Positions 1,967 to 21,581 of a stretch of 25,837 nucleotides of DNA are shown here, piece by piece. The notes beneath the pieces were generated by a model, which worked only from the letters and a program-made list of their open reading frames with translations, was not told the DNA's origin and searched no databases. The stretch's first letter is position 1. Every line of letters begins with the position of its first letter. Origin of the DNA: a virus; IMG/VR virus record IMGVR_UViG_3300030430_000208, positions 22,869 to 48,705 of that record; one strand, 5' to 3'. The position numbers were made by a program, and so were the translations under genes.

Positions 1967-2042
1967 TGACGATTTAATATGGTTAATATTAGGTGCTAGT
2001 TCAGTAGCATTTATATTTGGATATTTTGGTATAGGCTTATGA
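1959..2042 (+). CDS. 27-aa single-span membrane microprotein
   Basis: A very short ORF bridges the 1610 gene and the integrase. AGGAGGTG (1948-1955) lies just before ATG 1959, a strong but closely spaced ribosome site. The product is almost entirely one membrane helix after an acidic start (MNNDDLIWLILGASSVAF). Its TGA overlaps the integrase ATG as ATGA (2039-2042). It could be a real membrane microprotein, or a leader that mainly couples translation into the integrase, whose own ribosome site is weak. Confidence 0.5.
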   Translation: MNNDDLIWLILGASSVAFIFGYFGIGL

Positions 2043-2989
2043 AAGTTAATGACTTATTAAAAGAATACTATTTATCGTTTGAATACAATAACTTACGAGA
2101 AGAAACTAAAGCACAGTATAAATACTTTTTAGGCATAGTTTGTTCTACAAGTGTGGTTGATGGCAAGAGTTTAGGAACGTATAAACTCTCTAGTCTAACA
2201 ACTAAACTTGCCAAGTTGTCTTATAACAAATGGTGTGAGAGAGGTGTATCATTAGCTAATCATCTCATGTCTGTAATCAGAGTATTGCTTAATTACGGAA
2301 TAAACATGGAGCATTGTAATATGAATCCATTTAGTAATATTAAGAAACGTGTCGTTGCACATAGAAAAGTTGTTTGGACAAAAGATGACGTTATCAGGTT
2401 TCTTGATATTGCATACTCTGACTTCAAGACTAGAAGTTTAGGACTGATTGCACAGATGGCATACGAATGGTGTCAAAGAATAGGGGATATGAGACTTTTA
2501 GAGTGGTCTAATCTTGATTTAGACGAACAACGTATGCAAATTGAGCAGTCTAAGAGAAGAGCAGAAGTATTTTTACCCATATCAGACGAGTTAAATGAAA
2601 TGTTATTACAACAAAAGAATGATTATGGGTTTCAAAAGTATGTAGCACCTCGCCCAAGACCATTTAAGGGGTCATACAAGCCTTATTCACTAACAAAGCT
2701 ACCAATCCTAGCTAGAAAGGTTATGACCTCTGCAGGACTCTCTAATGAGCTACGATTAAGTGACTTACGTAGAACAGGAACAGTTGAAATGGTTGATGCA
2801 GGTGTATCTATGGGTAATATTATGTCAGTTACAGGACATGCTAACCCACAATCTGTTAAACCTTACATGAAGAATACCTTTGCTAGTGCTAATTTAGCAT
2901 TGCAAACACGTAGAGGGTTGACAGAATCTGAAAGTCATGATAAAAGCATATTAAATGCCAACAAGAAGGATGTAATATATAATATATGA
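2039..2989 (+). CDS. int: Tyrosine recombinase / phage integrase
   Basis: A 316-aa site-specific recombinase. The N-terminal core-binding part is residues 1 to about 105; the catalytic part is about 112-295. Visible active-site residues are Arg147 (CQRIGDMRLLEW), beta-hairpin Lys172 (QSKRRAEVFLP), box II LSDLRRTG with Arg244, His267 (VTGHANPQS) and the nucleophile Tyr276 (KPYMKN). The box II position that is His in the common H-x-x-R motif is Ser241 here. The enzyme suggests a temperate lifestyle or a temperate ancestor. The gene is sandwiched between coding sequence on both sides (ATGA overlaps at each end), so no attP region sits beside it. Its ribosome site is weak and coupled translation from the preceding ORF is likely. 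Confidence 0.93.
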   Translation: MKVNDLLKEYYLSFEYNNLREETKAQYKYFLGIVCSTSVVDGKSLGTYKLSSLTTKLAKLSYNKWCERGVSLANHLMSVIRVLLNYGINMEHCNMNPFSNIKKRVVAHRKVVWTKDDVIRFLDIAYSDFKTRSLGLIAQMAYEWCQRIGDMRLLEWSNLDLDEQRMQIEQSKRRAEVFLPISDELNEMLLQQKNDYGFQKYVAPRPRPFKGSYKPYSLTKLPILARKVMTSAGLSNELRLSDLRRTGTVEMVDAGVSMGNIMSVTGHANPQSVKPYMKNTFASANLALQTRRGLTESESHDKSILNANKKDVIYNI

Positions 2990-4976: not shown

Positions 4977-5425
4977 TTGAACAGTTTGAACTCTTTAGTG
5001 TAGTAGAGGAGATATGTGAAGATGGGTTGGTCTGCATCAAGTGTGATATAAGACAACCTATTGAAAACTTTCAACAGATGTCCTACACGAAGTCAGGAGA
5101 AGCAGAAATAAAAAGGACATGTAGGTCATGTCAAAAAGGACATAGGCAAGTTATTGCTACGTTAAGAAAACAAAACGTGTATCCTGACAAGAATTATTGT
5201 TGTCCTATTTGTAAAAGAAGTATAGAAGAGGTTAATAAGTATAATCAAAAGTTGTTAGGCACATGGGTTCTTGACCATTGTCACGATACAAATACTTTTC
5301 GTGGTTACATATGTAAACATTGTAATGATGGATTGGGTGGATTTAGAGATGACTTGACAACAATAGAAAGAGCAGTTATATATCTAAAAGAACATAAGGA
5401 AAGATTAAATGAAGTTAACGATTGA
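4973..5425 (+). CDS. Recombination endonuclease VII-like nuclease
   Basis: A 150-aa HNH/beta-beta-alpha-metal nuclease of the T4 endonuclease VII family, which cuts Holliday junctions and other branched DNA before packaging. It has an N-terminal zinc knuckle (CIKC at 21-24 with CRSC at 50-53) and a second Cys set (CPIC with CKHC). The catalytic block is WVLDHCHDTNTFRGYICKHC followed by NDGLGGFRDD, matching the family pattern LDHDH...RG.LC..CN.GLG.F.DD. The next gene starts 17 nt before its stop. The same phage also carries a T7-type endonuclease I (9313). Confidence 0.9.
   Translation: MIEQFELFSVVEEICEDGLVCIKCDIRQPIENFQQMSYTKSGEAEIKRTCRSCQKGHRQVIATLRKQNVYPDKNYCCPICKRSIEEVNKYNQKLLGTWVLDHCHDTNTFRGYICKHCNDGLGGFRDDLTTIERAVIYLKEHKERLNEVND
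5354..5382 (+). promoter_or_regulatory. Possible sigma70-like promoter before DNA polymerase
   Basis: TTGACA (5354-5359), a 17-nt spacer and TATATA (5377-5382) lie inside the endonuclease VII gene, 27 nt before the polymerase start. The -35 is perfect but the -10 matches TATAAT at only 4 of 6 positions. In an AT-rich genome this can be chance; position is the main support. Confidence 0.3.
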
Positions 5426-7424
5426 TATAGAAAATACAGTAACTAAAAGAGATGGCAAGATGTATCTTGACCCATATGAACCAACTAATAAATTAGTTAT
5501 GGTGGGTTGTCGTGATGACAATGGAAATGAAACTATATATGATATGGATAGTGGGTTTGTTGATATACAAGACATGTTAGATAAAGCTACAGTTCTTATA
5601 GGACACAACATAACATATGATTTGATGTGGTTGTGGGAGTGTGGTTTCAAATATGATGGTGTTATATTTGATACTATGTTAGCAGAGTATGTTTTAAGTA
5701 GGGGTAATCCTGAGAAGTATTCTTTGTCATTAGAAGCCTGTGCAGAAAGACATGATTTGAATACAAAGAAGCAAGATACATTAAAAGAATATTTTGCTAA
5801 AGGCATGGGTGTGGATGAGATACCAAAGGATGAGTTAACAGAATATTTAAGAGCAGACTTGAGAGCAACGCAAGAGTTATGTGATAGCCAATACAAACAA
5901 TTAATTAGCACATCCCTTATGGATACAGTAATACTTACAAACAAAGTTGCTATGACTCTAGCTAGAACACATAGGAATGGTTTTAAGGTAAACCAAGATG
6001 TCCTAGAATCTGTAAGAAAAGAGTTTGAGTCTGAAAAGATAGACATAGAAAAAAGATTGAAGAAACAAGTTCAAGACTTGATGGGTGACACACCTATAAA
6101 TTTAAATAGTCCTGAACAAATGTCTTGGGTTATATATAGTAGAAAGCCTAAAGATAAAGCACTATGGGCAAACGAGTTTACACCTTACATGGATAAGGAT
6201 AAGTATAGAGAGTGTGTATTAGAGCATTCCAATCTTGTTTACAAAACAAAAGCTATAAAATGTAAAGACTGTTTAGGTGCAGGATATGTTAGGAAGACAA
6301 AGAAATCAGGAGCACCTTACGCAAAGCCAAGCAGATGCCACACGTGTAATACACAAGGATATTTATTTGAACCAACTAATAAAGTTGCAGGTTTAAAGTT
6401 CTCTGCACCTACTGCTAAATGGGTTAGTGCAAATGGATTTACTATAAATAAACTTTATCTTGATACATTAAGAAATGTAGCTAAAAGAAATAATATGAAA
6501 GATGCAGAAAACTTTTTATCTGACTTACAGAGATTGTCTGCATTGGATACTTATCTCTCTTCTTTTGTTGATGGTATCAAATCACATATAAAGCAGGATG
6601 GCATGTTACATGTCAGATTGTTACAACACAGAACTGCAACAGGCAGATTTAGTGGAGCAGACCCTAACATGCAGAACATGCCTAGAGGTGGTACGTTCCC
6701 TGTAAAGAAGGTATTTGTTTCACGTTGGAAAGGTGGCAAGATTCTAGAAGCAGACTTTGCACAGTTAGAGTTTAGGACTGCAGCCTATTTATCACAAGAC
6801 GAGGTGGCAATAGATGAAATTAAAACAGGCTTTGACGTTCATGCTTATACGGCTTCAGTTATTTCAGCTTCGGGTCAGAGTACAACTAGACAAGAAGCTA
6901 AAGCACATACCTTTGCTCCGTTATATGGTGCGACTGGGTTTGGAAGAACAGAAGCAGAAGCGAAATACTACCAAGACTTCACGAAAAAATACAAAGGCAT
7001 CGCACTTTGGCATTCCAGATTGGCTAAAGAAGCTCTAGAGAAACGTAGTATTACAACACCATCAGGCAGACAGTTTAGTTTTCCTGATGTTGAAAGGAGA
7101 AGAAGTGGTTCTGTATCACATTTTACACAGATAAAAAATTATCCTGTACAAAGTTTTGCAACTGCAGATATAGTTCCCCTTATTCTTGTTCACATGGAAC
7201 AGAGATTAAAATCACTAAACTCTTGTATTGTGAATACAGTACATGATTCTATCGTGATTGATGTTCATCCTGATGAAATAAATAAAGTTGTATTTATAAT
7301 TAAAAGTATTAATCAGGATATTACTAATATTGTGAATACACAATTTGGTATTGATTTTAATGTGCCTCTTTTGTTAGAGTCAAAGATAGGAGACAACTGG
7401 CTTGACACAAAAGATATTGCATGA
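5409..7424 (+). CDS. Family A DNA polymerase with inserted DnaJ-type zinc ribbon
   Basis: The 671-aa replicative polymerase. The 3'-5' exonuclease part (1 to about 165) has Exo I TIDIE (Asp6, Glu8), Exo II GHNITYD (65-71) and Exo III YLRADLRAT (146-154). A zinc ribbon of the DnaJ central-domain kind follows: CKDCLGAG (285-292) and CHTCNTQG (310-317). The polymerase core has TGRFSGADPNMQNMP (411-425), motif A EADFAQLEFR (Asp449), motif B RQEAKAHTFAPLYG (Arg494, Lys498, Phe502, Tyr506) and motif C VHDSIVID (His612, Asp613; Ser replaces the usual Glu). Phe502 aligns with E. coli Pol I Phe762. The DnaJ-like insert is the hallmark reported for the SAR116 phage HMO-2011. AAGGAAAG (about 5396-5403) precedes ATG 5409. 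Confidence 0.96.
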   Translation: MKLTIDIENTVTKRDGKMYLDPYEPTNKLVMVGCRDDNGNETIYDMDSGFVDIQDMLDKATVLIGHNITYDLMWLWECGFKYDGVIFDTMLAEYVLSRGNPEKYSLSLEACAERHDLNTKKQDTLKEYFAKGMGVDEIPKDELTEYLRADLRATQELCDSQYKQLISTSLMDTVILTNKVAMTLARTHRNGFKVNQDVLESVRKEFESEKIDIEKRLKKQVQDLMGDTPINLNSPEQMSWVIYSRKPKDKALWANEFTPYMDKDKYRECVLEHSNLVYKTKAIKCKDCLGAGYVRKTKKSGAPYAKPSRCHTCNTQGYLFEPTNKVAGLKFSAPTAKWVSANGFTINKLYLDTLRNVAKRNNMKDAENFLSDLQRLSALDTYLSSFVDGIKSHIKQDGMLHVRLLQHRTATGRFSGADPNMQNMPRGGTFPVKKVFVSRWKGGKILEADFAQLEFRTAAYLSQDEVAIDEIKTGFDVHAYTASVISASGQSTTRQEAKAHTFAPLYGATGFGRTEAEAKYYQDFTKKYKGIALWHSRLAKEALEKRSITTPSGRQFSFPDVERRRSGSVSHFTQIKNYPVQSFATADIVPLILVHMEQRLKSLNSCIVNTVHDSIVIDVHPDEINKVVFIIKSINQDITNIVNTQFGIDFNVPLLLESKIGDNWLDTKDIA

Positions 7425-13623: not shown

Positions 13624-16600
13624 TTACTCTTTAAAAAGTTGTTGTTGTTTTTTTGGTAGAAACTTTCTTTTTAGTTCTCCTTCACCTCTTATCTTAGATG
13701 CCTCTTTAAATATTTGAAATAATTCATTATAATCATAGTAGTCAATTTCATAATCACGAACATTTAATTCTTTTTCTTTTCTAGCTTTATATAATTTTTC
13801 TGCAGACATTCTAGAGGTAGGACTAATTGATTTATACTTTATCAACATGCCTAATAACTCATCTTCATTATTTATTTCTGCTTTAGCCTCTGCTAGAGCT
13901 TGTTTCTTTATACTTTTTATATAAGAATCTACTGCACCAACAGCTTTTCCATAATCAAATTTACCATCAGTTTTATAAGCATCATCTGACTTTAATGTAG
14001 ATAAATAGTATGTCATTTCTTCTTGTAAAAAGAAAGCAGTATTTTTATTAGCTAATCTATTTATAGTTGGCATGGCTGTTTTAGACATAAAAGCATCATA
14101 CCCAAATCCCATTCTACTAAGTTCTAATATATATTTAGGGGGTGTTCTATTTAATGTAGCACCAAACAGAACTTTCATGAATGGTAAAACTCTTTCAGGT
14201 ATATCTGTGATTCTTGGGTCTCTTCCAAAAGGGACATTAGGGTCATCTGTAAAAGCATCTATTCTTCTTTTTATAGGTAAACTAAATTCTTTTAAAAAAG
14301 CATCTAAACTTTTCTCTATATCAAAACCAAAATAGTAGTCAGTGAACTCATCAAGTTTGCCACCAAATCTTTGCTCATATATAGGGTCTTTTTTATAGTC
14401 TCTTCTCCTGTCTGATTCACCTGTTATATCAGAGAATTGTAAAAAGAATTGACCATAACCTGACCATGCCTCACCTAAAGTTCTACCAAGACCACCAAAA
14501 AAACTATCTCTTACTCTAGCATCTCCTGATTGAGCAAGTTTAAGAAATTCACCTATAGTTCTATCTATTGATGTAAATGACCTAAAGTTAGCTCCTGATA
14601 CACCTTGCCAAAAGTCTCTAGCACCTACACTAGGAACACCTCTTTCTGCTCTATGCATCATTTCTCCAAATAAAAGATATGGTGTTATAATAGGACCAAA
14701 CACTCTCATATCCATCTCTGTACCTTTGCCTGTATTTAATGTATACCATTCAGAACCTGCTATACCATTTTCAGGGTCTCTTAGTACATAACCCATTGGC
14801 AATAATATTGTAGTACCAACTATGCCCTCTGCCATTTGTTTGTAAGCACCATCATCTACTTTTTTAAACCCACCTTTTCTAATAGCCTGTGACATAGTTC
14901 TGTAAGCACCTGTCATAGCACCTGTAACGTTATAATTATATGTCATTTCCATTGCTTTAAACATAAATCTAGGGAATGGAGCAAATATTGTAAGGTATTT
15001 AGTCATAAATTGATTAGCATCTTGAAAAAGTCCTAATCTAGGTTGTGCAGCATAAGTAAAATCTAAAGCGTCTTCTACCCCTTTTGCCATCATCTCGTTA
15101 TCAACGTACTTTAAAAAAGTACCTTCTTTCATTACATTAACAAGATTAACGTCTTTTCCATACTTATTTATAAGTTGTCTTTCTATTGATGCATTAAATG
15201 CACCTCTTCTAAAAAGTGATTCTTGGAATCTATTAAATACATTAAAGTGATGTATTAGCATTTCCCATTTATCTAATGTTGAGTCTACTATGTTACCTCT
15301 TTGTGGGTCTAGAGCTTCTGGTGTTTTTGTTTTCTTACTCTTTGCATCAACTCCTGATACTCTTGACAACGCATCTTGATTAGGATTAGCTTTTCTTAAC
15401 TTATGTCCTACTTCACTATAATTGTTCCACATTTTAGCTTTGGCAAAATCAAAATTATCTAATAAAGCATTTGATATTACAGTTGAATCTTCTAAATTTG
15501 TGAAAGTATATTTTAGTTGAGCTAAACTTCCTCTAAGACTAAACTTTTTATTAGGATTTAATACACTCTCTAATGTATAGATAAGACTATCTATAGCCAC
15601 TCTAGGTATCTGTGCCAATGCGTTTCTTTGTGCAGTAGCTATACCTGAAACTAGTGTAGCTCTACGTATATTTTCAAATCTATAATATAACTCTTTAAAT
15701 CTATTATTTACTGCTATTTGTGCCTGTTCCTCTGCAACCTCTTCAGATGTTTTTAATCTGTTAGCTTGTGCTAACTTTCTAGGAAGTTGAGATACTACAC
15801 TTAATTTTTTACCTGCTCTACTAATTTCTGATAACATCATGGCAGAAAAATCTTTATTTGTCACTCCATATTTAGCCAATATTTTTAATGGTAAATCTTT
15901 GTTAACAAATCCTTTTTCATTCATTAGTATTTCAAAAACTCTTTCACTTATTCTTTCATCTTTTCCTAAAGGTCTGAATAAGTTTTTTAATTCTGCAGTT
16001 CCTTCTTTAATGTATTGTGCTTTGTCCATGTTTAAGGTTCTAGCAATACCTTCGTCAATATCTAAAAACTCTTCAACATTAGCTCTGCCTCTTTCAAAAA
16101 GTTCTCCAACACCTGCTAAAACTCTTTCATATGTATTTAAATTCATAGCAGGTTCTACTATTTCTACTTGATAACCTGCTTTATCTAAAGATTCTAATTT
16201 TTCCCTACCTGCTTTTTTAATAACTTCAGTGTTAATACCTACAACATTACCACTAGAATCTCTTTGAACTGCTTTCTTTCCAAATGTATCTTCTATATCT
16301 TTAGCAAATTTGTCTGCATATTCTTTTGCACCACCTAATTCTTTTATTTTTTGTTTAGCAATTTGTTGTTGTTTCTTCTTTACCTTTTTAACTGCTTCCT
16401 CAATGCCCTCTTTGGTTAGACCACTGCCTTTTCTCATAGCTAGTCTTTGTCCAACACCTGATAAAGTTCCTGATATTACAGCAGATGCACCTGCAACTGT
16501 TGCAGTTCTTTCTGCATCATAATCCTCTCTAATACCCATTTCTATTTCAGAGCCTTGAGCTACTACATCAACAACGGCAGCTTGACCTGCATCTATTGGA

Positions 16601-17394
16601 GCAGTAGTCGCAGCAGCTATGAGTATTTGAGATATTTTGCCTATACCTGCCTTTTGAGCCAATTTTTGTGATATAGCTTTACCCACACCTATAGATACTA
16701 TAGATAGAGGAGAAGTTATCTGCGTAGCTATATGCCCACCCACTGTATCAATTACATCAGTTACTTTTTCATAACCTGACATACCTTCATATCTTTTAGA
16801 GTCATATATCTCTGCCAGTCTAGATGTTTTGGAGTACAATTTAGCTGCTCTTGCCCTCATCTCAGAAAACTTTTTAGCTTCTGCCAAGTAAGCATTTTGT
16901 TCATTTTGCACTTTAGCATTTCTAGCATTTGTTAATGCCATCTGTTCTTTTTTCTGTATACTTTTTAGCCAATCTAACTCTTGAATGACATCTATTTCAT
17001 TACCTGTTATAAATCTATAATGGTCTAAATAATCATCAATTATATTTTCTTGGGTTAAATCTTGCTTTAAAAAAGGTATCATTACATAGGCAGCACCAAC
17101 TTTTTTGTCAGTGCCAAATCTATCTTCTCTATACTGAAGTATTTCTTCAAAATAGTCTTTATCTTTTAATAAGTCTTTTTTACTAAGTTTTCCTTGGGAA
17201 GTGTCAAGTGGAGTAACTTGACTAGGGTCGGTGCTTGTAATAGTTTGAAGCTCAGTGCCTTCTATTACATCTTTAGATTCTTCTTTTTGAATAACGTCAC
17301 TACTTTCCTCAAATTCAAAAACATCTTTATTGTCTTCTTCTTGAGCAAATACATCTTGATTTTTATTGGATAGTAAATCTAATCTTGTGGACAT
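13624..17394 (-). CDS. Large internal virion (ejection) protein, putative
   Basis: The last and largest gene of the virion arm, 1256 aa. Residues 12-45 hold four imperfect acidic repeats around DVF/DVI. A helical, charged stretch runs about 70-210. Residues about 216-318 are Ala/Gly-rich and hydrophobic (HIATQITSPLSIVSIGVGKA; ILIAAATTAPIDAGQAAVVD) and could insert in membrane. The rest is long, mostly helical and rich in Lys/Arg/Phe. Huge size, a hydrophobic part and position after other structural genes resemble the gp15/gp16 ejection proteins of T7-like phages, but I see no lytic transglycosylase motif. The role is inferred from size and place. AGGATT lies before the ATG. The gene ends 6 nt from the convergent left arm. 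Confidence 0.88.
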   Translation of the reverse strand: MSTRLDLLSNKNQDVFAQEEDNKDVFEFEESSDVIQKEESKDVIEGTELQTITSTDPSQVTPLDTSQGKLSKKDLLKDKDYFEEILQYREDRFGTDKKVGAAYVMIPFLKQDLTQENIIDDYLDHYRFITGNEIDVIQELDWLKSIQKKEQMALTNARNAKVQNEQNAYLAEAKKFSEMRARAAKLYSKTSRLAEIYDSKRYEGMSGYEKVTDVIDTVGGHIATQITSPLSIVSIGVGKAISQKLAQKAGIGKISQILIAAATTAPIDAGQAAVVDVVAQGSEIEMGIREDYDAERTATVAGASAVISGTLSGVGQRLAMRKGSGLTKEGIEEAVKKVKKKQQQIAKQKIKELGGAKEYADKFAKDIEDTFGKKAVQRDSSGNVVGINTEVIKKAGREKLESLDKAGYQVEIVEPAMNLNTYERVLAGVGELFERGRANVEEFLDIDEGIARTLNMDKAQYIKEGTAELKNLFRPLGKDERISERVFEILMNEKGFVNKDLPLKILAKYGVTNKDFSAMMLSEISRAGKKLSVVSQLPRKLAQANRLKTSEEVAEEQAQIAVNNRFKELYYRFENIRRATLVSGIATAQRNALAQIPRVAIDSLIYTLESVLNPNKKFSLRGSLAQLKYTFTNLEDSTVISNALLDNFDFAKAKMWNNYSEVGHKLRKANPNQDALSRVSGVDAKSKKTKTPEALDPQRGNIVDSTLDKWEMLIHHFNVFNRFQESLFRRGAFNASIERQLINKYGKDVNLVNVMKEGTFLKYVDNEMMAKGVEDALDFTYAAQPRLGLFQDANQFMTKYLTIFAPFPRFMFKAMEMTYNYNVTGAMTGAYRTMSQAIRKGGFKKVDDGAYKQMAEGIVGTTILLPMGYVLRDPENGIAGSEWYTLNTGKGTEMDMRVFGPIITPYLLFGEMMHRAERGVPSVGARDFWQGVSGANFRSFTSIDRTIGEFLKLAQSGDARVRDSFFGGLGRTLGEAWSGYGQFFLQFSDITGESDRRRDYKKDPIYEQRFGGKLDEFTDYYFGFDIEKSLDAFLKEFSLPIKRRIDAFTDDPNVPFGRDPRITDIPERVLPFMKVLFGATLNRTPPKYILELSRMGFGYDAFMSKTAMPTINRLANKNTAFFLQEEMTYYLSTLKSDDAYKTDGKFDYGKAVGAVDSYIKSIKKQALAEAKAEINNEDELLGMLIKYKSISPTSRMSAEKLYKARKEKELNVRDYEIDYYDYNELFQIFKEASKIRGEGELKRKFLPKKQQQLFKE
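17260..17358 (-). repeat. Acidic 9-10-residue repeats at the N-terminus of the 1256-aa protein
   Basis: Residues 13-45 contain four short units: QDVFAQEEDN, KDVFEFEESS, DVIQKEESK and DVIEG. Each begins D-V-F/I and carries E-E. They are protein-level repeats with diverged DNA. Such acidic linear repeats could be a docking tail for another virion protein. Confidence 0.6.
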
Positions 17395-17409: not shown

Positions 17410-18531
17410 TTATGGTATTCTAATTTCAGGAACACCTTCACCTAAATAAATATACTTTTCTTTTTTATTTTGTGATAATTGTCTGACATAAACACCACCT
17501 ATTTCAAATTTATCTGTTTGAGTAATAGGATTTAGTCCTTTTGCTATTGCAATTAAAGTAGATTTTACAGTATCTTGATTTATGTAAGGAGTTGTAGGTT
17601 GTTTAGCGTTTATTATTTGTTGAACTGTAATTTTAAAACCCTCCATTCTTGCTTGTTGGGTCTTTTTACCATAATCCTCTGGGGTTAAGTAACCACCACT
17701 ACCAATCCCTTTTGCAAGACCTGCTTTAGCGTATTGATTACTTTCATTAGTTCTATATAATTTATTTATTTGATTAATATCAAAATCTCCTGTCTCTAAT
17801 GTCTGCAATAATTTCTTTCTATCTAGTTCTCCTTTTTCATATGCTGCTTTTAAATTTCTAAATCTTTGCATTTCCATTTCATCTGACACAGGACCTTTAA
17901 ATTGTGCAGAAGGTCCTTCTGCTAAAACTTCATCCTCTTTATATCCTGTTGCAGCAAGTAAATCAGATTCAATTTTACCTACGTCAGGAGAAGTAAATGC
18001 AGTTTCTTTAAATCTACCTAAACCTTTAGCTTTAGCAGCCAAGTCAAGAACAGGTTTTGGAACTAATTCTTGAGCATTCTTTTTAGCTATTTGTTCTAAT
18101 GTTCTTTCTGATTTTAAATCTTTTGGATTTGTTATGTAAGCGTCAACATAATTAAATGTATTGTCATCTTCACTCTCTGTTAAATTATTCATAAGATGGT
18201 TTCTTTTTCTAGATACAACATCTTTTGTTACATTCTCTAGACTATATCCATGACTAGCATATATAGCATTTGCAACTTCATACATGTTTACATCACTTAT
18301 ATTCGGATTGTCTTTAACATAAGTATTAACAATTTGAGATATATCTTTTTTCATTTTATTTTCTAACAATAATCTTTTTGCACTAGCTTTTTTGATAGCA
18401 CCTACATTGTTATCAATAAAATCATTAAAAGCCTTGTTATACTCTTTAGACCTTCTAACATCGTCTGCTTTTAATATGTCTGCAGCTCTACCACCTGCTA
18501 TCGCTGCAAATTGTACTAAAGATAAAGCCAT
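17410..18531 (-). CDS. Hypothetical virion-arm protein, 373 aa
   Basis: Starts MALSLVQFAAIAGGRAADIL, an Ala-rich hydrophobic N-terminal helix, followed by a long charged helical region (about 20-170) and a mixed C-terminal half with a likely beta part at the end (EIGGVYVRQL...KYIYLGEGVPEIRIP). No enzyme motif is visible. It lies directly before the 1256-aa protein and after the 174-aa protein in the same operon (TAATG overlap at 18529-18533, GAGGTG ribosome site), so a second internal virion protein is the best guess. Not recognised with certainty. Confidence 0.82.
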   Translation of the reverse strand: MALSLVQFAAIAGGRAADILKADDVRRSKEYNKAFNDFIDNNVGAIKKASAKRLLLENKMKKDISQIVNTYVKDNPNISDVNMYEVANAIYASHGYSLENVTKDVVSRKRNHLMNNLTESEDDNTFNYVDAYITNPKDLKSERTLEQIAKKNAQELVPKPVLDLAAKAKGLGRFKETAFTSPDVGKIESDLLAATGYKEDEVLAEGPSAQFKGPVSDEMEMQRFRNLKAAYEKGELDRKKLLQTLETGDFDINQINKLYRTNESNQYAKAGLAKGIGSGGYLTPEDYGKKTQQARMEGFKITVQQIINAKQPTTPYINQDTVKSTLIAIAKGLNPITQTDKFEIGGVYVRQLSQNKKEKYIYLGEGVPEIRIP

Positions 18532-19055
18532 TACACCTCTTCCTCTTCTTTTTCAGGTCTAGACATCAGACCTTTCTTTTCTTCTTTTAAAATGTCCTTG
18601 GATAAATCTGCTATTTCAGTTTGTTGCTCTTCAGTGACCTTTTCTTCCCCTTTTAAGGCTTCTACTGCTTTATCTGCAATAACAGGATTAGCTTCCATGT
18701 CCATATCTTTTCTTTCTAAATTATATGATGTGTTTGTTATATCACCAATACCTTTTAAAAATTCTACTATTATAGGGTTCATTAACACTGCAACATCTAC
18801 ACTGTGTTTACCTTCCATAGCTCCAACTAAAGTCATGGTCTCTGCTATGTTAGGTAAAGGTGTGCCACTTTCAAGTAAACCCAATACTTGATTTATTGTT
18901 GCAGGGTTGCCTATTCTAGGTATATAATAATCTATGGCAGCCTCTACTGTTGGTAGTTCAGGAGGAGTTTGCCAAGGTCTAGCACCTAGTTCGTGTGTTA
19001 GTGACATTCCCGGAATAGGAGCATCTAATTCAGGTTCTAATTCTATTGATGACAT
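18531..19055 (-). CDS. Hypothetical virion-arm protein, 174 aa
   Basis: Begins with a Pro-rich segment (APIPGMSLTHELGARPWQTP, PELPTVEAAIDYYIPRI) that I associate with conserved structural-region proteins of marine phages. A helical middle follows (NPATINQVLGLLESG, NIAETMTLVGAMEG), then a highly charged C-terminus ending EKEEEEV. GAGGAG precedes the start. It overlaps the 373-aa gene by TAATG and is separated by 2 nt from the 70-aa gene upstream. Function unknown; coexpression with internal proteins suggests a virion or assembly role. Confidence 0.82.
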   Translation of the reverse strand: MSSIELEPELDAPIPGMSLTHELGARPWQTPPELPTVEAAIDYYIPRIGNPATINQVLGLLESGTPLPNIAETMTLVGAMEGKHSVDVAVLMNPIIVEFLKGIGDITNTSYNLERKDMDMEANPVIADKAVEALKGEEKVTEEQQTEIADLSKDILKEEKKGLMSRPEKEEEEV

Positions 19056-19057
19056 TA

Positions 19058-19270
19058 TTAAGTCTCCTCTTTTGCTTCCATATTTCTTTTAAAAGCATTT
19101 CTAATTGTAAGTACATATTGTTTCGTATTTAACATATCACTTGATTCTTCTTTTGGTCTTCTTTGAAGTAAACTTGTTTGATTAGTTTTTACAGGTTTAT
19201 CACCCATTCTTTTTAATTCTTCATTAAGAGTAAACCAAGTTCTACGATTGTTTTCTATAAAATTTGCCAT
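19058..19270 (-). CDS. Hypothetical 70-aa basic protein
   Basis: A short basic protein (MANFIENNRRTWFTLNEELK, later RRPKEESSDMLNTKQYVLTI and RNAFKRNMEAKEET). It is held in the operon by a TAATG overlap with the 692-aa gene (stop of that gene and this start at 19268-19272). No family recognised. Its place between two structural genes is the only hint of function. Confidence 0.7.
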   Translation of the reverse strand: MANFIENNRRTWFTLNEELKRMGDKPVKTNQTSLLQRRPKEESSDMLNTKQYVLTIRNAFKRNMEAKEET

Positions 19271-21348
19271 TAACTAAACCATCCACCTATTAATGAGTCT
19301 TTTCCTGCAGTTAATATAGTACCTACCATACTGCCAAGACCTGATGCTGCTTTTGCATCTGCTTCCATTGCTCTTGCTTCTTTTAAAGAGTCTGATTGTA
19401 TATTAGCAACTGCTAATTTTTGTATTCTATCTAGTTCACTCTCTGCACTTGTCCATGCCCATTCCATAGTGTCTGCATAATATGTCCACAAATTATCATA
19501 AGCCTCTTTTGATATACCAAGAAGAGAATTAGCATTTAATTCATTTGCACGATTAACTGCTACAGTATCTGCAGTGGCTATCTGTCTTCTCCACTGTGCA
19601 TTACTTTGACTTATTACAAGTTGATTCTGTGCATTAAATTGGTCTCTTTGATTATTAAGTTCTGCATTAAATCTTTCTACAGTATTAGCTTGACCTGCAT
19701 TAAACTGTGCTTGGGCATTAGCTTGTGTTGCATTAAACTGTGCAACTTGTGTTCCTAGATTTGCAAAGAATTGGTCAACTTGATTCTGTGTCGTAGCATT
19801 AAACTGTCTACTTGCATTCTCTGCAGCTTGGTCTGTAAACAATGCTTGTGTTCTTTGTTGAGCTTTAAATAATTCTGTTTGTTGTTTATTAGTTAAGTTA
19901 GCCATGTCCATTTGTAAAAAGTTTTGAGCATTCTGCACTGCAGATTGTTGTCTGTTACTTAAATTAGCCATATCTAAATTAGCTAAAGCACCTGCTTCTG
20001 CCATAACCATAGCCTGATTATTACTCAAGTTCTGTAAATTCATTGTATTGACAGCACGAGAGTTTTCTAACGCTATCTGTTGCTCTGCATTGAAGTTCAT
20101 GTTAGCTATATCTGCTATTCTTGCAGAGTTTTGTACTCTTGCTTGAAATGCTTGGTCAAACTCTTGACCTATAAATGTTGCTCTTTGTTGAGCAGCTAAC
20201 ATTGCTCTCTGTTGTCTGTTAGATAAATTTTGTGTTTCAAACTGTGCTTGTATACTTGCATCTGCTTGTGCAATAGGTAGTGCAGATTCTATTGATGCTT
20301 GAATTAAGGCTTGTCCTGCCATACTAGATGCACCAATACCTCTTTGTTGCATTGCTGCTTGGACACCTCTAATTGCACCTGCTGCCCATGCAGGTGGATT
20401 GGTAGCGTCAAAGTTTGCTGTTAAAGAAGATAGTTGACCTTGGACAGTGGCTTTTTCGGAAGGAGTTGCAGTCGCTGCATCTATTTGTTCTGCGAACTTA
20501 GCTGCTTTTTCTGCGTTAGCTACACCATCAATAAGTTCCCCATCTTGAATTTGTCTTTGAACAGGATTTTCAAGAATGTGAGCTTTACCTTGTGCAGCCT
20601 CTAAATCACTTACACTTGATTCTGTTTGCTCTGCTGCGATGACTTTAGAACGTGGGTCATCAGGGTCTGTTTGAGCAGCTTGAACTGTATCTAATGCAGT
20701 GTTTACATTATCTGTAACAGTTTGAGCATCCATTAAATTAGCAGTCATATCAGTTGGTTGATTTACCATTGTTGTGTCTGCAGTTGTTGTTGGCACATTA
20801 ACTTGACCTGACACTTGTCCTGTGCCTTCTTGTACTGTTTGCCCTGCAGTTATTTGTGTTCCTACAGGAACTACTGTAGTGCCTTCAGGTAAACCCGGAG
20901 TTGTCATTTGTTGTGCTGCAATATCTCCTATAGAAGAATCTTCTGCTACATTTAATTGAGGAACATTTTGTTGTGGTAAAGCTCTTGGGTCTGCTTGAGC
21001 ATTAGGGTCAATAGTAGGAAAATCAACTATTGGAGTTAAATTAGGAGGAGTTGGTATTCTAGCCTCAGGAGGTGGATTTATTGGGTCACCCGGTTTACCA
21101 TCTGAAGGAAACCCCGGACTGGTTATTTCTCCTGTAGCCAAAATAGGGTCTGGCGAACCACCCTCTTGCATTCTAACAACACCACCACGAGCCATCTCTT
21201 TTGCAGCTTCTTGAAAAACAATCATCTGTCTTTTCTTGTCAGGATTTTGTTCTAAGTAGCTATCAAAGTTTTCCATAGAACCTGTATAACCAAGTCTACC
21301 TGCGATTCTTTGCATTGCTTGTGGTTTAAAACCTCTGAATATTGCCAC
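19270..21348 (-). CDS. Putative internal virion protein with long hendecad-repeat helix
   Basis: A 692-aa protein starting at GTG 21348 (TAGTG overlap with the upstream stop; GGGAG ribosome site). Residues 1-64 are a compact domain ending ARGGVVRMQEGG. Residues 65-130 are Pro-rich and 130-300 are Thr/Gln/Ala-rich and low complexity. Residues 318-360 are Ala-rich helix. Residues 374-505 repeat every 22 residues (NLSNRQQ, NLSNNQ, NLTNKQQ), and 515-591 repeat every 11 (QFNATQANAQA, QFNAGQANTVE). The end is helical with a Gly-rich tail (GLGSMVGTILTAG). The long repeating helix suggests a rod or tube. A role as ejection-channel or tail-interior protein is inferred from context. Confidence 0.87.
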   Translation of the reverse strand: MAIFRGFKPQAMQRIAGRLGYTGSMENFDSYLEQNPDKKRQMIVFQEAAKEMARGGVVRMQEGGSPDPILATGEITSPGFPSDGKPGDPINPPPEARIPTPPNLTPIVDFPTIDPNAQADPRALPQQNVPQLNVAEDSSIGDIAAQQMTTPGLPEGTTVVPVGTQITAGQTVQEGTGQVSGQVNVPTTTADTTMVNQPTDMTANLMDAQTVTDNVNTALDTVQAAQTDPDDPRSKVIAAEQTESSVSDLEAAQGKAHILENPVQRQIQDGELIDGVANAEKAAKFAEQIDAATATPSEKATVQGQLSSLTANFDATNPPAWAAGAIRGVQAAMQQRGIGASSMAGQALIQASIESALPIAQADASIQAQFETQNLSNRQQRAMLAAQQRATFIGQEFDQAFQARVQNSARIADIANMNFNAEQQIALENSRAVNTMNLQNLSNNQAMVMAEAGALANLDMANLSNRQQSAVQNAQNFLQMDMANLTNKQQTELFKAQQRTQALFTDQAAENASRQFNATTQNQVDQFFANLGTQVAQFNATQANAQAQFNAGQANTVERFNAELNNQRDQFNAQNQLVISQSNAQWRRQIATADTVAVNRANELNANSLLGISKEAYDNLWTYYADTMEWAWTSAESELDRIQKLAVANIQSDSLKEARAMEADAKAASGLGSMVGTILTAGKDSLIGGWFS
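19576..19806 (-). repeat. Seven tandem 33-bp (11-residue) coding repeats
   Basis: Residues 515-591 of the 692-aa protein form seven consecutive 11-residue units, five beginning QFNA or RFNA, one QFFA and one QSNA. The register is exact with no gap. An 11-residue period is a hendecad, typical of right-handed or nearly straight coiled coils. The DNA units are clearly diverged, so selection at protein level keeps the pattern. Confidence 0.85.
19834..20229 (-). repeat. Six tandem 66-bp (22-residue) coding repeats
   Basis: Residues 374-505 of the 692-aa protein keep a 22-residue period. The unit starts are N374-L, E396-F, N418-F, N440-L, N462-L and N484-L, commonly followed by SNRQQ or a variant. 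It is twice the 11-residue period of the array that follows, with a 2-residue phase shift between the two arrays. Confidence 0.75.
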
Positions 21349-21581
21349 TATTTAGCTCCCATTAATATCTTATCTAGTTTATCTTCTAATCTTTTGATTG
21401 CATCCATAAGGTCATGCATATCATCTTTTACATCATCTTTACGAGCATACTCTTCACGAGTCTTGTTTAATAATATCTGTATACGTTTTACCTCTTGGAA
21501 CATCTTGTTGAATGCCCAACCAAATGGCACAACGACCATAGTTAGTATAATGTTCCAAAATAACATTGCATCTATTTCCAT
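21348..21581 (-). CDS. Membrane-anchored coiled-coil protein, 77 aa
   Basis: One N-terminal membrane segment (about residues 6-24, MLFWNIILTMVVVPFGWAF) is followed by a long charged helix (FQEVKRIQILLNKTREEYAR, later LMDAIKRLEDKLDKIL) with clear heptads, probably a coiled coil. The layout suggests a bitopic protein with a cytoplasmic or periplasmic helical rod. A lysis role (spanin or holin partner) is possible but unproved; no lipobox and no endolysin are nearby. It sits between tail genes and internal-protein genes, and its TAG overlaps the next GTG. Confidence 0.75.
   Translation of the reverse strand: MEIDAMLFWNIILTMVVVPFGWAFNKMFQEVKRIQILLNKTREEYARKDDVKDDMHDLMDAIKRLEDKLDKILMGAK

Follow-up and report, generated by a model that had tools for sequence, protein, structure and literature searches.

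The locus

The window, i.e., the whole stretch of DNA that was analysed, comprises 25,837 nucleotides of a 55,310-base virus record that is kin to HMO-2011-type podoviruses. Phages of this type have been described as dominant in the sea and as widespread there (PMC9038755). The genes considered here are the following.

13624..17394, minus strand: 1256-aa gene, last of the gene block, candidate large ejection protein (from size and gene order only)
18531..19055, minus strand: companion gene, 174 aa, conserved beside the repeat gene
19270..21348, minus strand: repeat protein gene, 692 aa, with a GTG start at 21348; homologue of HMO-2011 phage1322_25 (ADW08438.1) and CRP-1 gp35

The repeat protein is 59% identical to phage1322_25 of Puniceispirillum phage HMO-2011 at 98% coverage, and 57% identical to gp35 of Roseobacter phage CRP-1 (tblastn; coverage of the two homologues 98-99%), both of which are annotated as hypothetical proteins. 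By end-to-end homology and shared gene order, it fits the HMO-2011-type phage1322_25 family, whose members occupy the same gene place in HMO-2011, CRP, HTVC, CHOED, MQM1, phiM6, and RHph phages. In the HMO-2011 and CRP-1 gene orders, the repeat gene sits between the tail genes and the gene block, and the genes of its block are annotated without a named function in the records examined. The repeat proteins of CRP-1, CRP-9, and CRP-603 are 1094, 1021, and 1141 aa long (loci L002 10657-13941, L097, and L096, respectively); in CRP-1, 448 residues precede the part that aligns to the window protein.

Searches with the window repeat protein returned no matches in PHROGs (at E 0.01), in NCBIfam, or among PDB sequences (at E 10). 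Pfam matches were all below cut-off and included no enzyme domain; the C-terminal Peptidase_S74 domain (PF13884) was absent among them at E 1. A profile of alignment A1 gave a single PDB match, at E 4.8. When 55 members of alignment A2 were searched against PHROGs, ten families were matched, the best being phrog_1958, “minor tail protein” (4 of 55 members, best E 0.0042). No description of a 22/11-residue phage repeat was found in the literature consulted, which included passages of PMC9038755, PMC10410586, and PMC6256558.

Homologues of the 174-aa companion are present at all 16 named distant phage loci (E < 1e-12); none of 30 members matched PHROGs, and there was no PDB match at E 1. For the 1256-aa protein, no sequence homologue was found in 16 distant phages, and its 27-sequence alignment yielded no PHROGs match in any member and no match to T7 gp16. 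Its best PDB match, a radial spoke protein (E 0.005), was not taken as kin. Directly upstream of the repeat gene, a 77-aa protein is encoded on the minus strand (window 21348-21581), and the last base of its gene is also the first of the repeat gene. Its N-terminal segment is apolar and it has a charged helix; by eye, it looks spanin- or holin-like. It matches phrog_12220, of unknown function (E 4.7e-6), and, weakly, phrog_462, “lipoprotein” (E 6e-4).

Layout of the repeat protein

The repeat protein can be divided into the following parts.

21181..21348, minus strand: N-terminal mini-domain, residues 1-56, three predicted helices (AlphaFold2 pLDDT 75-87 over residues 1-50)
20479..21180, minus strand: free-length linker, residues 57-290, mostly predicted disordered
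20230..20478, minus strand: conserved head of the repeat domain, residues 291-373, PPAWAAGA...RGIGASSM...ALPIAQ, with anchor P358
19834..20229, minus strand: six 22-residue units, residues 374-505, N-L-[STDN]-N-x-Q-Q-x-x-[LVMI]-x-N-A...[ML]-x-[ML]-x
19576..19833, minus strand: junction and 11-residue zone, residues 506-591, D506QAAENA, then QFNAxxxNAxx units
19273..19575, minus strand: C-terminal part, residues 592-692, a conserved YDNLWTYYADTMEWAW helix, then a variable end

How far the parts vary in length was tabulated for 66 distinct complete proteins, the window protein included, after identical copies and ORFs cut at an end had been removed. Residues 291-650 are constant in residue count in all 66, and so, within them, are the conserved head (291-373) and residues 592-650; the part aligned to residues 66-290 ranges from 158 to 541 residues, and length is again variable beyond residue 650. 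In 59 sequences, the invariant columns of the conserved head are P319, W321, R336, G337, S341, S342, and P358. The linker had pLDDT of 29-53 in 20 of 23 ten-residue blocks of residues 61-290. The C-terminal end of the window protein is Gly-rich by eye and extends 42 residues past residue 650; a longer extension of 98-122 residues past the equivalent point is found in 19 of the 66 proteins (L001, L009, L037, and others), and the three that were scanned (L001, L009, L037) gave no Pfam match there. An HMM of the N-terminal mini-domain matched 126 repeat-protein ORFs and two other ORFs. When only ORFs with an intact 5' end were counted, the HMM matched all 90 whose repeat region has the same anchor-to-anchor length as that of the window (228 residues, see below), and none in the 151, 162, 173, 184, 316, and 426 groups.

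Two periods in a common register

An earlier note on this DNA had described six 22-residue units at residues 374-505 (window 20229-19834, minus strand), followed, after a 2-residue phase shift, by seven exact 11-residue units at residues 515-591 (19806-19576, minus strand). Both periods are real and were correctly placed: residue-identity autocorrelation is maximal at lag 22 in the first zone (0.236, z 5.1 vs shuffles) and at lag 11 in the second (0.424, z 8.0 vs shuffles). Unit 2 of the 22-residue series (EFDQAFQARVQNSARIADIANM) is degenerate. The seven 11-residue units are exact in spacing but not in sequence. At the DNA level, identity between adjacent units of the window is 32-55% for the 66-nt units and 39-67% for the 33-nt units, and Tandem Repeats Finder reported nothing there beyond a weak 15-nt array. 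The phase shift does not correspond to an insertion, for 517-374 equals 143, or 13 x 11; in the second zone, the note had simply placed the unit edge two residues earlier. Asparagine occupies 15 of the 22 positions 374+11k up to residue 605, and since this one asparagine lane keeps to a single register modulo 11, the two zones are in phase. The apolar lane does shift. In 67 representatives chosen from the 224 distinct segments described below, it falls mainly on positions 2, 10, 19, and 21 (with alanine at 13) in the 22-residue zone, and on positions 8 and 11 in the 11-residue zone.

In the same representatives, 91% of the 22-residue units have S, N, D, or T at position 3 (S, D, N, S, S, T in the window), a residue that was taken as a putative helix cap. 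Position 10 is apolar in 98% of units, and the repeat zones are proline-free. The strongest apolar period in window residues 374-505 is ~2.75 (11/4) on all three scales tried. In residues 515-591, 11/3 is the peak on the large-apolar scale only (p 0.002), the other two scales peaking at 2.73-2.74 (p 0.41 and 0.57). Across the representatives, with large apolar residues weighted 1 and alanine 0.4 in the 11/3 stripe test, the 11/3 period reached p<0.05 in 57 of 67 for the 11-residue zone and 38 of 67 for the 22-residue zone, while for the 11/4 period the corresponding numbers were 27 and 64. A period of 3.5 was significant in none of the 67 in either zone. In both zones, the averaged hydropathy moment nevertheless favoured 11/4 over 11/3 (0.67 vs 0.48 and 0.76 vs 0.37). 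In the window protein, F or W recurs every 11 residues six times (F516-F571), a run that was never reached in 2000 shuffles.

Repeat length changes in whole units

To compare repeat lengths among relatives, two anchors outside the repeats were used, P358 of ALPIAQ and W586 of AQWRR, each modelled (HMM) with a mostly non-repetitive flank. ORFs were searched in 295 loci (the window's own record, 18 named phages, and 276 viral contigs), the relatives sampled being the best 80 of 401, the best 80 of 201, and the best 80 of 516. The first anchor was matched by 286 ORFs, the second by 291, and both by 284, from 284 loci; the 11 loci without both anchors, mostly contig ends, were dropped. The 284 ORFs contain 224 distinct anchor-to-anchor segments, and the length of every one of them equals 228 modulo 11. 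Thirteen lengths occur in the sampled loci: 151, 162, 173, 184, 217, 228, 316, 338, 426, 448, 558, 668, and 778 residues. The spacing is 228 residues in the window as well as in HMO-2011 and CRP-1, 338 in ctYwJ313, and 184 in Aeromonas phage 1233. Outside the repeats, length varies freely: as a control, the distance from the first Met to the anchor took 131 distinct values, with all 11 classes modulo 11 occupied. When segments were split at D506, the 22-residue zone differed by whole 22s in 222 of 224 segments (the two at 217 residues differ by 11) and the 11-residue zone by whole 11s in all 224, the split being less certain than the total length because the boundary model sits in 11-periodic sequence.

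The whole-11 steps suggest that the repeat is a real folding unit. Unequal crossing-over also yields whole-unit changes without selection on fold, so quantisation alone is no proof of a fold. Expressed in units, the 22-residue zone of the sampled relatives contains 2, 3, 4, 5.5, 6, 9, 11, 14, 16, 21, 26, or 31 units, and from one phage group to another the count changes by whole units only. Differences of five units (110 residues) recur in the series 6, 11, 16, 21, 26, 31, and also between 9 and 14. The best 330-nt blocks of six long members share 83, 78, 73, 65, 52, and 51% DNA identity with the block that follows (the 83% value comes from the middle of one 778-residue member), whereas neighbouring 66-nt units of the same six members are 31-47% identical. 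Growth by five-unit blocks thus looks fairly recent in some long members. A flank-built tree of 68 representatives required 20 length changes by parsimony, with 12 as the floor for 13 lengths; the tree is poorly resolved, 12 of its 65 inner branches being well supported. The neighbouring units of the window, at 32-55% identity, are too different for easy slippage, which can explain the constant length of the 228 group without a ruler. Poor slippage of diverged units is also a neutral rival to selection on fold.

Predicted fold

An AlphaFold2 model of the window protein (55 sequences) had a mean pLDDT of 54.8. It contains an unbroken helix over residues 487-669, with pLDDT of 71-85 over residues 531-610. 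The 22-residue zone of this model is poorly predicted (pLDDT 42-64), with helix breaks at 394-398, 436-442, and 484-486 only, so that three of the six unit starts are unbroken. The model of an 11-unit relative (26 sequences, repeat surroundings only) shows a different picture in the 22-residue zone: eleven short helices, one of them split, at one per 22 residues, with pLDDT of 65-87 there and 31-54 in the 11-residue zone. Each zone is thus confident in one of two models; both models are monomeric and come from shallow alignments. The relative's model and the cap residue, taken together, lead us to read the 22-residue unit as a predicted helix plus turn, and the 11-residue zone as a predicted long helix.

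The earlier note had proposed that about 220 residues form one hendecad helix of some 30 nm if straight. The common 11-residue register and the predicted long helix of the 11-residue zone are in keeping with it; the solenoid predicted for the 22-residue zone in the relative is not. The repeat region is predicted to be helical and not disordered, with an 11/3 stripe in the 11-residue zone on one scale.

Foldseek returned 33 matches for the window model at E 10, with none at 0.001 and a best E of 1.6; a chain of the cyanophage A4 pre-ejectosome, the seventh match (E 3.4), was not counted. For the relative's model, there were 91 PDB matches, none at 0.001 (best E 0.22). VIA-align 2 with the same model gave a best Z of 7.1 (3.9 A over 115 residues), mostly to designed helical repeats and below the tool's meaningful level for helical models. 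In BFVD, the relative's model had four matches at 0.001, of 26-49% identity and probably kin; beyond those, matches were weak and often to tape measures or minor tail proteins (best tape measure E 8.6e-3, probability 0.60). The PDB and VIA-align searches thus yielded no confident match to a known fold.

Comparison with known systems

Tape measures of siphophages (TP901-1; Clostridium and Staphylococcus prophages) contain 11-residue F/W repeats (PMC3271669, PMC5099701). Like the protein studied here, they have aromatic-marked, largely helical 11-residue repeats whose units are duplicated and lost (PMC3271669, PMC5099701). They belong to long-tailed phages, whereas the present group is short-tailed (PMC9038755), its repeats are Asn/Gln-rich, and a 22-residue zone precedes the 11-residue one. 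The published tape-measure pattern requires seven F/W (PMC3271669); the window protein has six, and none of the 224 segments or 284 ORFs reaches seven. 

Among podophages, the gene run in the late structural block that ends in a large gene resembles the arrangement of P22 gp7/gp20/gp16 and T7 gp14/gp15/gp16, and the Gly-rich end resembles P22 gp7 by eye. Unlike the window protein, T7 gp14, P22 gp7, and P22 gp20 have no 11- or 22-residue array by eye, and hhalign comparison of our profile with single sequences of T7 gp14/gp15 and P22 gp7/gp20 gave no significant match (E 0.14-0.66). In alpha/beta coiled coils, which occur in trimeric fibres including phage fibres and whose helices are broken at regular intervals (PMC4786415), 2- or 6-residue insertions are placed in heptads (PMC4786415), whereas the spacing here is 11 and 22. 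This period, together with the lack of a significant 3.5 period noted above, speaks against that fold.

Unit number and physical length

The suggestion that the number of units could set a physical length found no support from record lengths, from the one tail length available, or from host strains. In 34 records of 52.3-68.2 kb, picked by length, repeat length did not correlate significantly with record length (Spearman -0.11, p 0.53). The correlation was 0.31 (p 0.12) in the 26 records under 60 kb and -0.25 (p 0.14) in 38 records, four more of 50.4-52.0 kb being included; records were used as deposited and may include incomplete genomes. In MQM1, the capsid measures 70.6 nm and the tail 9.2 nm (PMC10410586), while its anchor spacing of 184 residues would correspond to 27.6 nm as a helix. 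Phages of one host strain differ in repeat length: on FZCC0040, CRP-207 has 217 residues, and CRP-212 and CRP-235 have 162; on FZCC0023, phages with 228 and with 217 residues occur. These comparisons, which include a single measured tail, therefore lend no support to a ruler for the capsid, the tail, or the host envelope.

Probable role of the repeat protein

The position of the gene, between tail genes and a block whose 174-aa member recurs in 16 of 16 distant phages, and LysM and Peptidase_S74 domains in a few relatives, lead us to infer that DNA ejection is the most likely role of the repeat protein. The earlier note had also raised ejection, as a tube lined by the repeats; our preference has these other grounds. 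In the CRP-235 relative (L093 2501-5035), LysM is found at the N-terminus (E 8.7e-11) and Peptidase_S74 at the C-terminus (E 3e-9). Peptidase_S74 follows the repeat region in three of nine relatives scanned with Pfam (CRP-738, CRP-235, and CRP-212). The C-terminus of the CRP-738 protein matches phrog_4287, “DNA ejection protein” (2e-13), a match that covers mainly the S74 tail, a domain found in fibres too. The lack of a match to the T7 and P22 ejection proteins speaks against the role. Only 3 of the 224 segments are followed by S74-like motifs. A clearly apolar 19-residue stretch is present in only 41 of 217 complete C-termini, and the window protein is without one. Because a Gly-rich apolar tail is thus not general, the ejection reading is slightly less sure. 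No virion proteomics of the HMO-2011-type group was found in the literature consulted, which included passages of PMC9038755, PMC10410586, and PMC6256558, and the label “virion protein” in the earlier note is an assumption.

The reading we prefer, with confidence a little short of even, is that HMO-2011-type podoviruses have a DNA-ejection protein that crosses the envelope, and that the repeats are a modular helical domain of it, made of two parts in one 11-residue register, with a unit number that is tolerated and does not act as a ruler. The first part would be a solenoid of 22-residue units, each consisting of ~15 residues of helix capped by S, T, D, or N and then a short turn; the second would be a long hendecad helix along which a lane of phenylalanines runs. 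Length would change through in-frame duplication or deletion of whole units, in blocks of five (110 residues) in the longest members. A change by anything other than whole units would break the fold, and we propose that length is quantised because only whole units fold. The number of units would then be a tolerated variable. The protein itself would lie inside the virion, leave it together with the DNA, and contribute to spanning the envelope.

The same region may instead be a single long, possibly trimeric, hendecad coiled coil, i.e., a straight rod. The one register modulo 11 across both zones, the 11/3 stripe in 57 of 67 representatives in the 11-residue zone, the helix at 487-669 with three of six unit starts unbroken in the window model, and, as a hint of a trimer, Peptidase_S74 in three relatives are consistent with it. 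We nevertheless consider a rod unlikely, given that in the 22-residue zone the 11/3 stripe is seen in only 38 of 67 representatives and 11/4 dominates, that 91% of the 22-residue units carry a cap residue at position 3, that turns are predicted every 22 residues in a relative, and that the longest sampled relative (778 residues) would be 117 nm long if it were a straight helix with a rise of 0.15 nm per residue. A tape-measure-like ruler, in which unit number sets a physical length, can draw on the 11-residue F/W repeats of siphophage tape measures (PMC3271669, PMC5099701), on the six phenylalanines at 11-residue spacing in the window protein, and on the frequency of tape measures among the weak BFVD fold matches. 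It is very improbable, however, in view of the short 9.2-nm tail of MQM1, the sole tail length known here (PMC10410586), the lack of a significant correlation with record length, and the variation among phages of one host strain. We also see little chance that the 22-residue unit represents an undescribed class of alpha-solenoid whose five-unit growth step is perhaps one superhelical turn, and which forms or lines an extensible conduit; if true, this would be a podophage with a length-adjustable, tape-measure-like element in its ejection machine rather than in its tail.

Other locations of the protein were considered as well. Peptidase_S74 is a chaperone typical of trimeric fibres, and its presence in three relatives would fit an external fibre or spike stalk on the head or tail, trimeric and with an exchangeable C-terminal domain. 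The long C-terminal extensions in 19 of 66 proteins and the tail-fibre genes that adjoin the repeat gene point the same way, and stalk length poses no problem outside the head. With an S74-like motif in only 3 of 224 segments, no receptor-binding domain among the Pfam matches of nine relatives, and a solenoid predicted in a relative, a fibre is, in our estimate, unlikely, though a serious rival to ejection. We regard as improbable, though again as a rival to be reckoned with, a lysis or cell-wall protein that is not part of the virion: several relatives have genes annotated nearby as lysozyme, endolysin, holin, M15 peptidase, or wall hydrolase, and one relative (CRP-235) has LysM, but other relatives examined have no annotated wall enzyme beside the repeat gene, the 174-aa neighbour is present at 16 of 16 distant loci, and Pfam finds no enzyme domain in the window protein.

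If the preferred reading, a tolerated helical module of an ejection protein, is right, the natural series of 2 to 31 units, quantised and constant within sampled groups, would permit a test of whether it makes a difference how long a component of podoviral ejection is, and of the limits to the growth of such a protein. The comparison also links the 11-residue repeats of siphophage tape measures with a podoviral protein.

Two other genes of the window deserve mention. The family A DNA polymerase (5409-7424, plus strand) has a weak match to a DnaJ-type CxxCxGxG zinc finger inserted at residues 280-320 (E 4e-4, below the Pfam cut-off); such an insertion in a family A DNA polymerase is a feature of HMO-2011. 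A 316-aa protein (2039-2989, plus strand) is tyrosine recombinase-like by eye, with an R...GHAN...Y motif.
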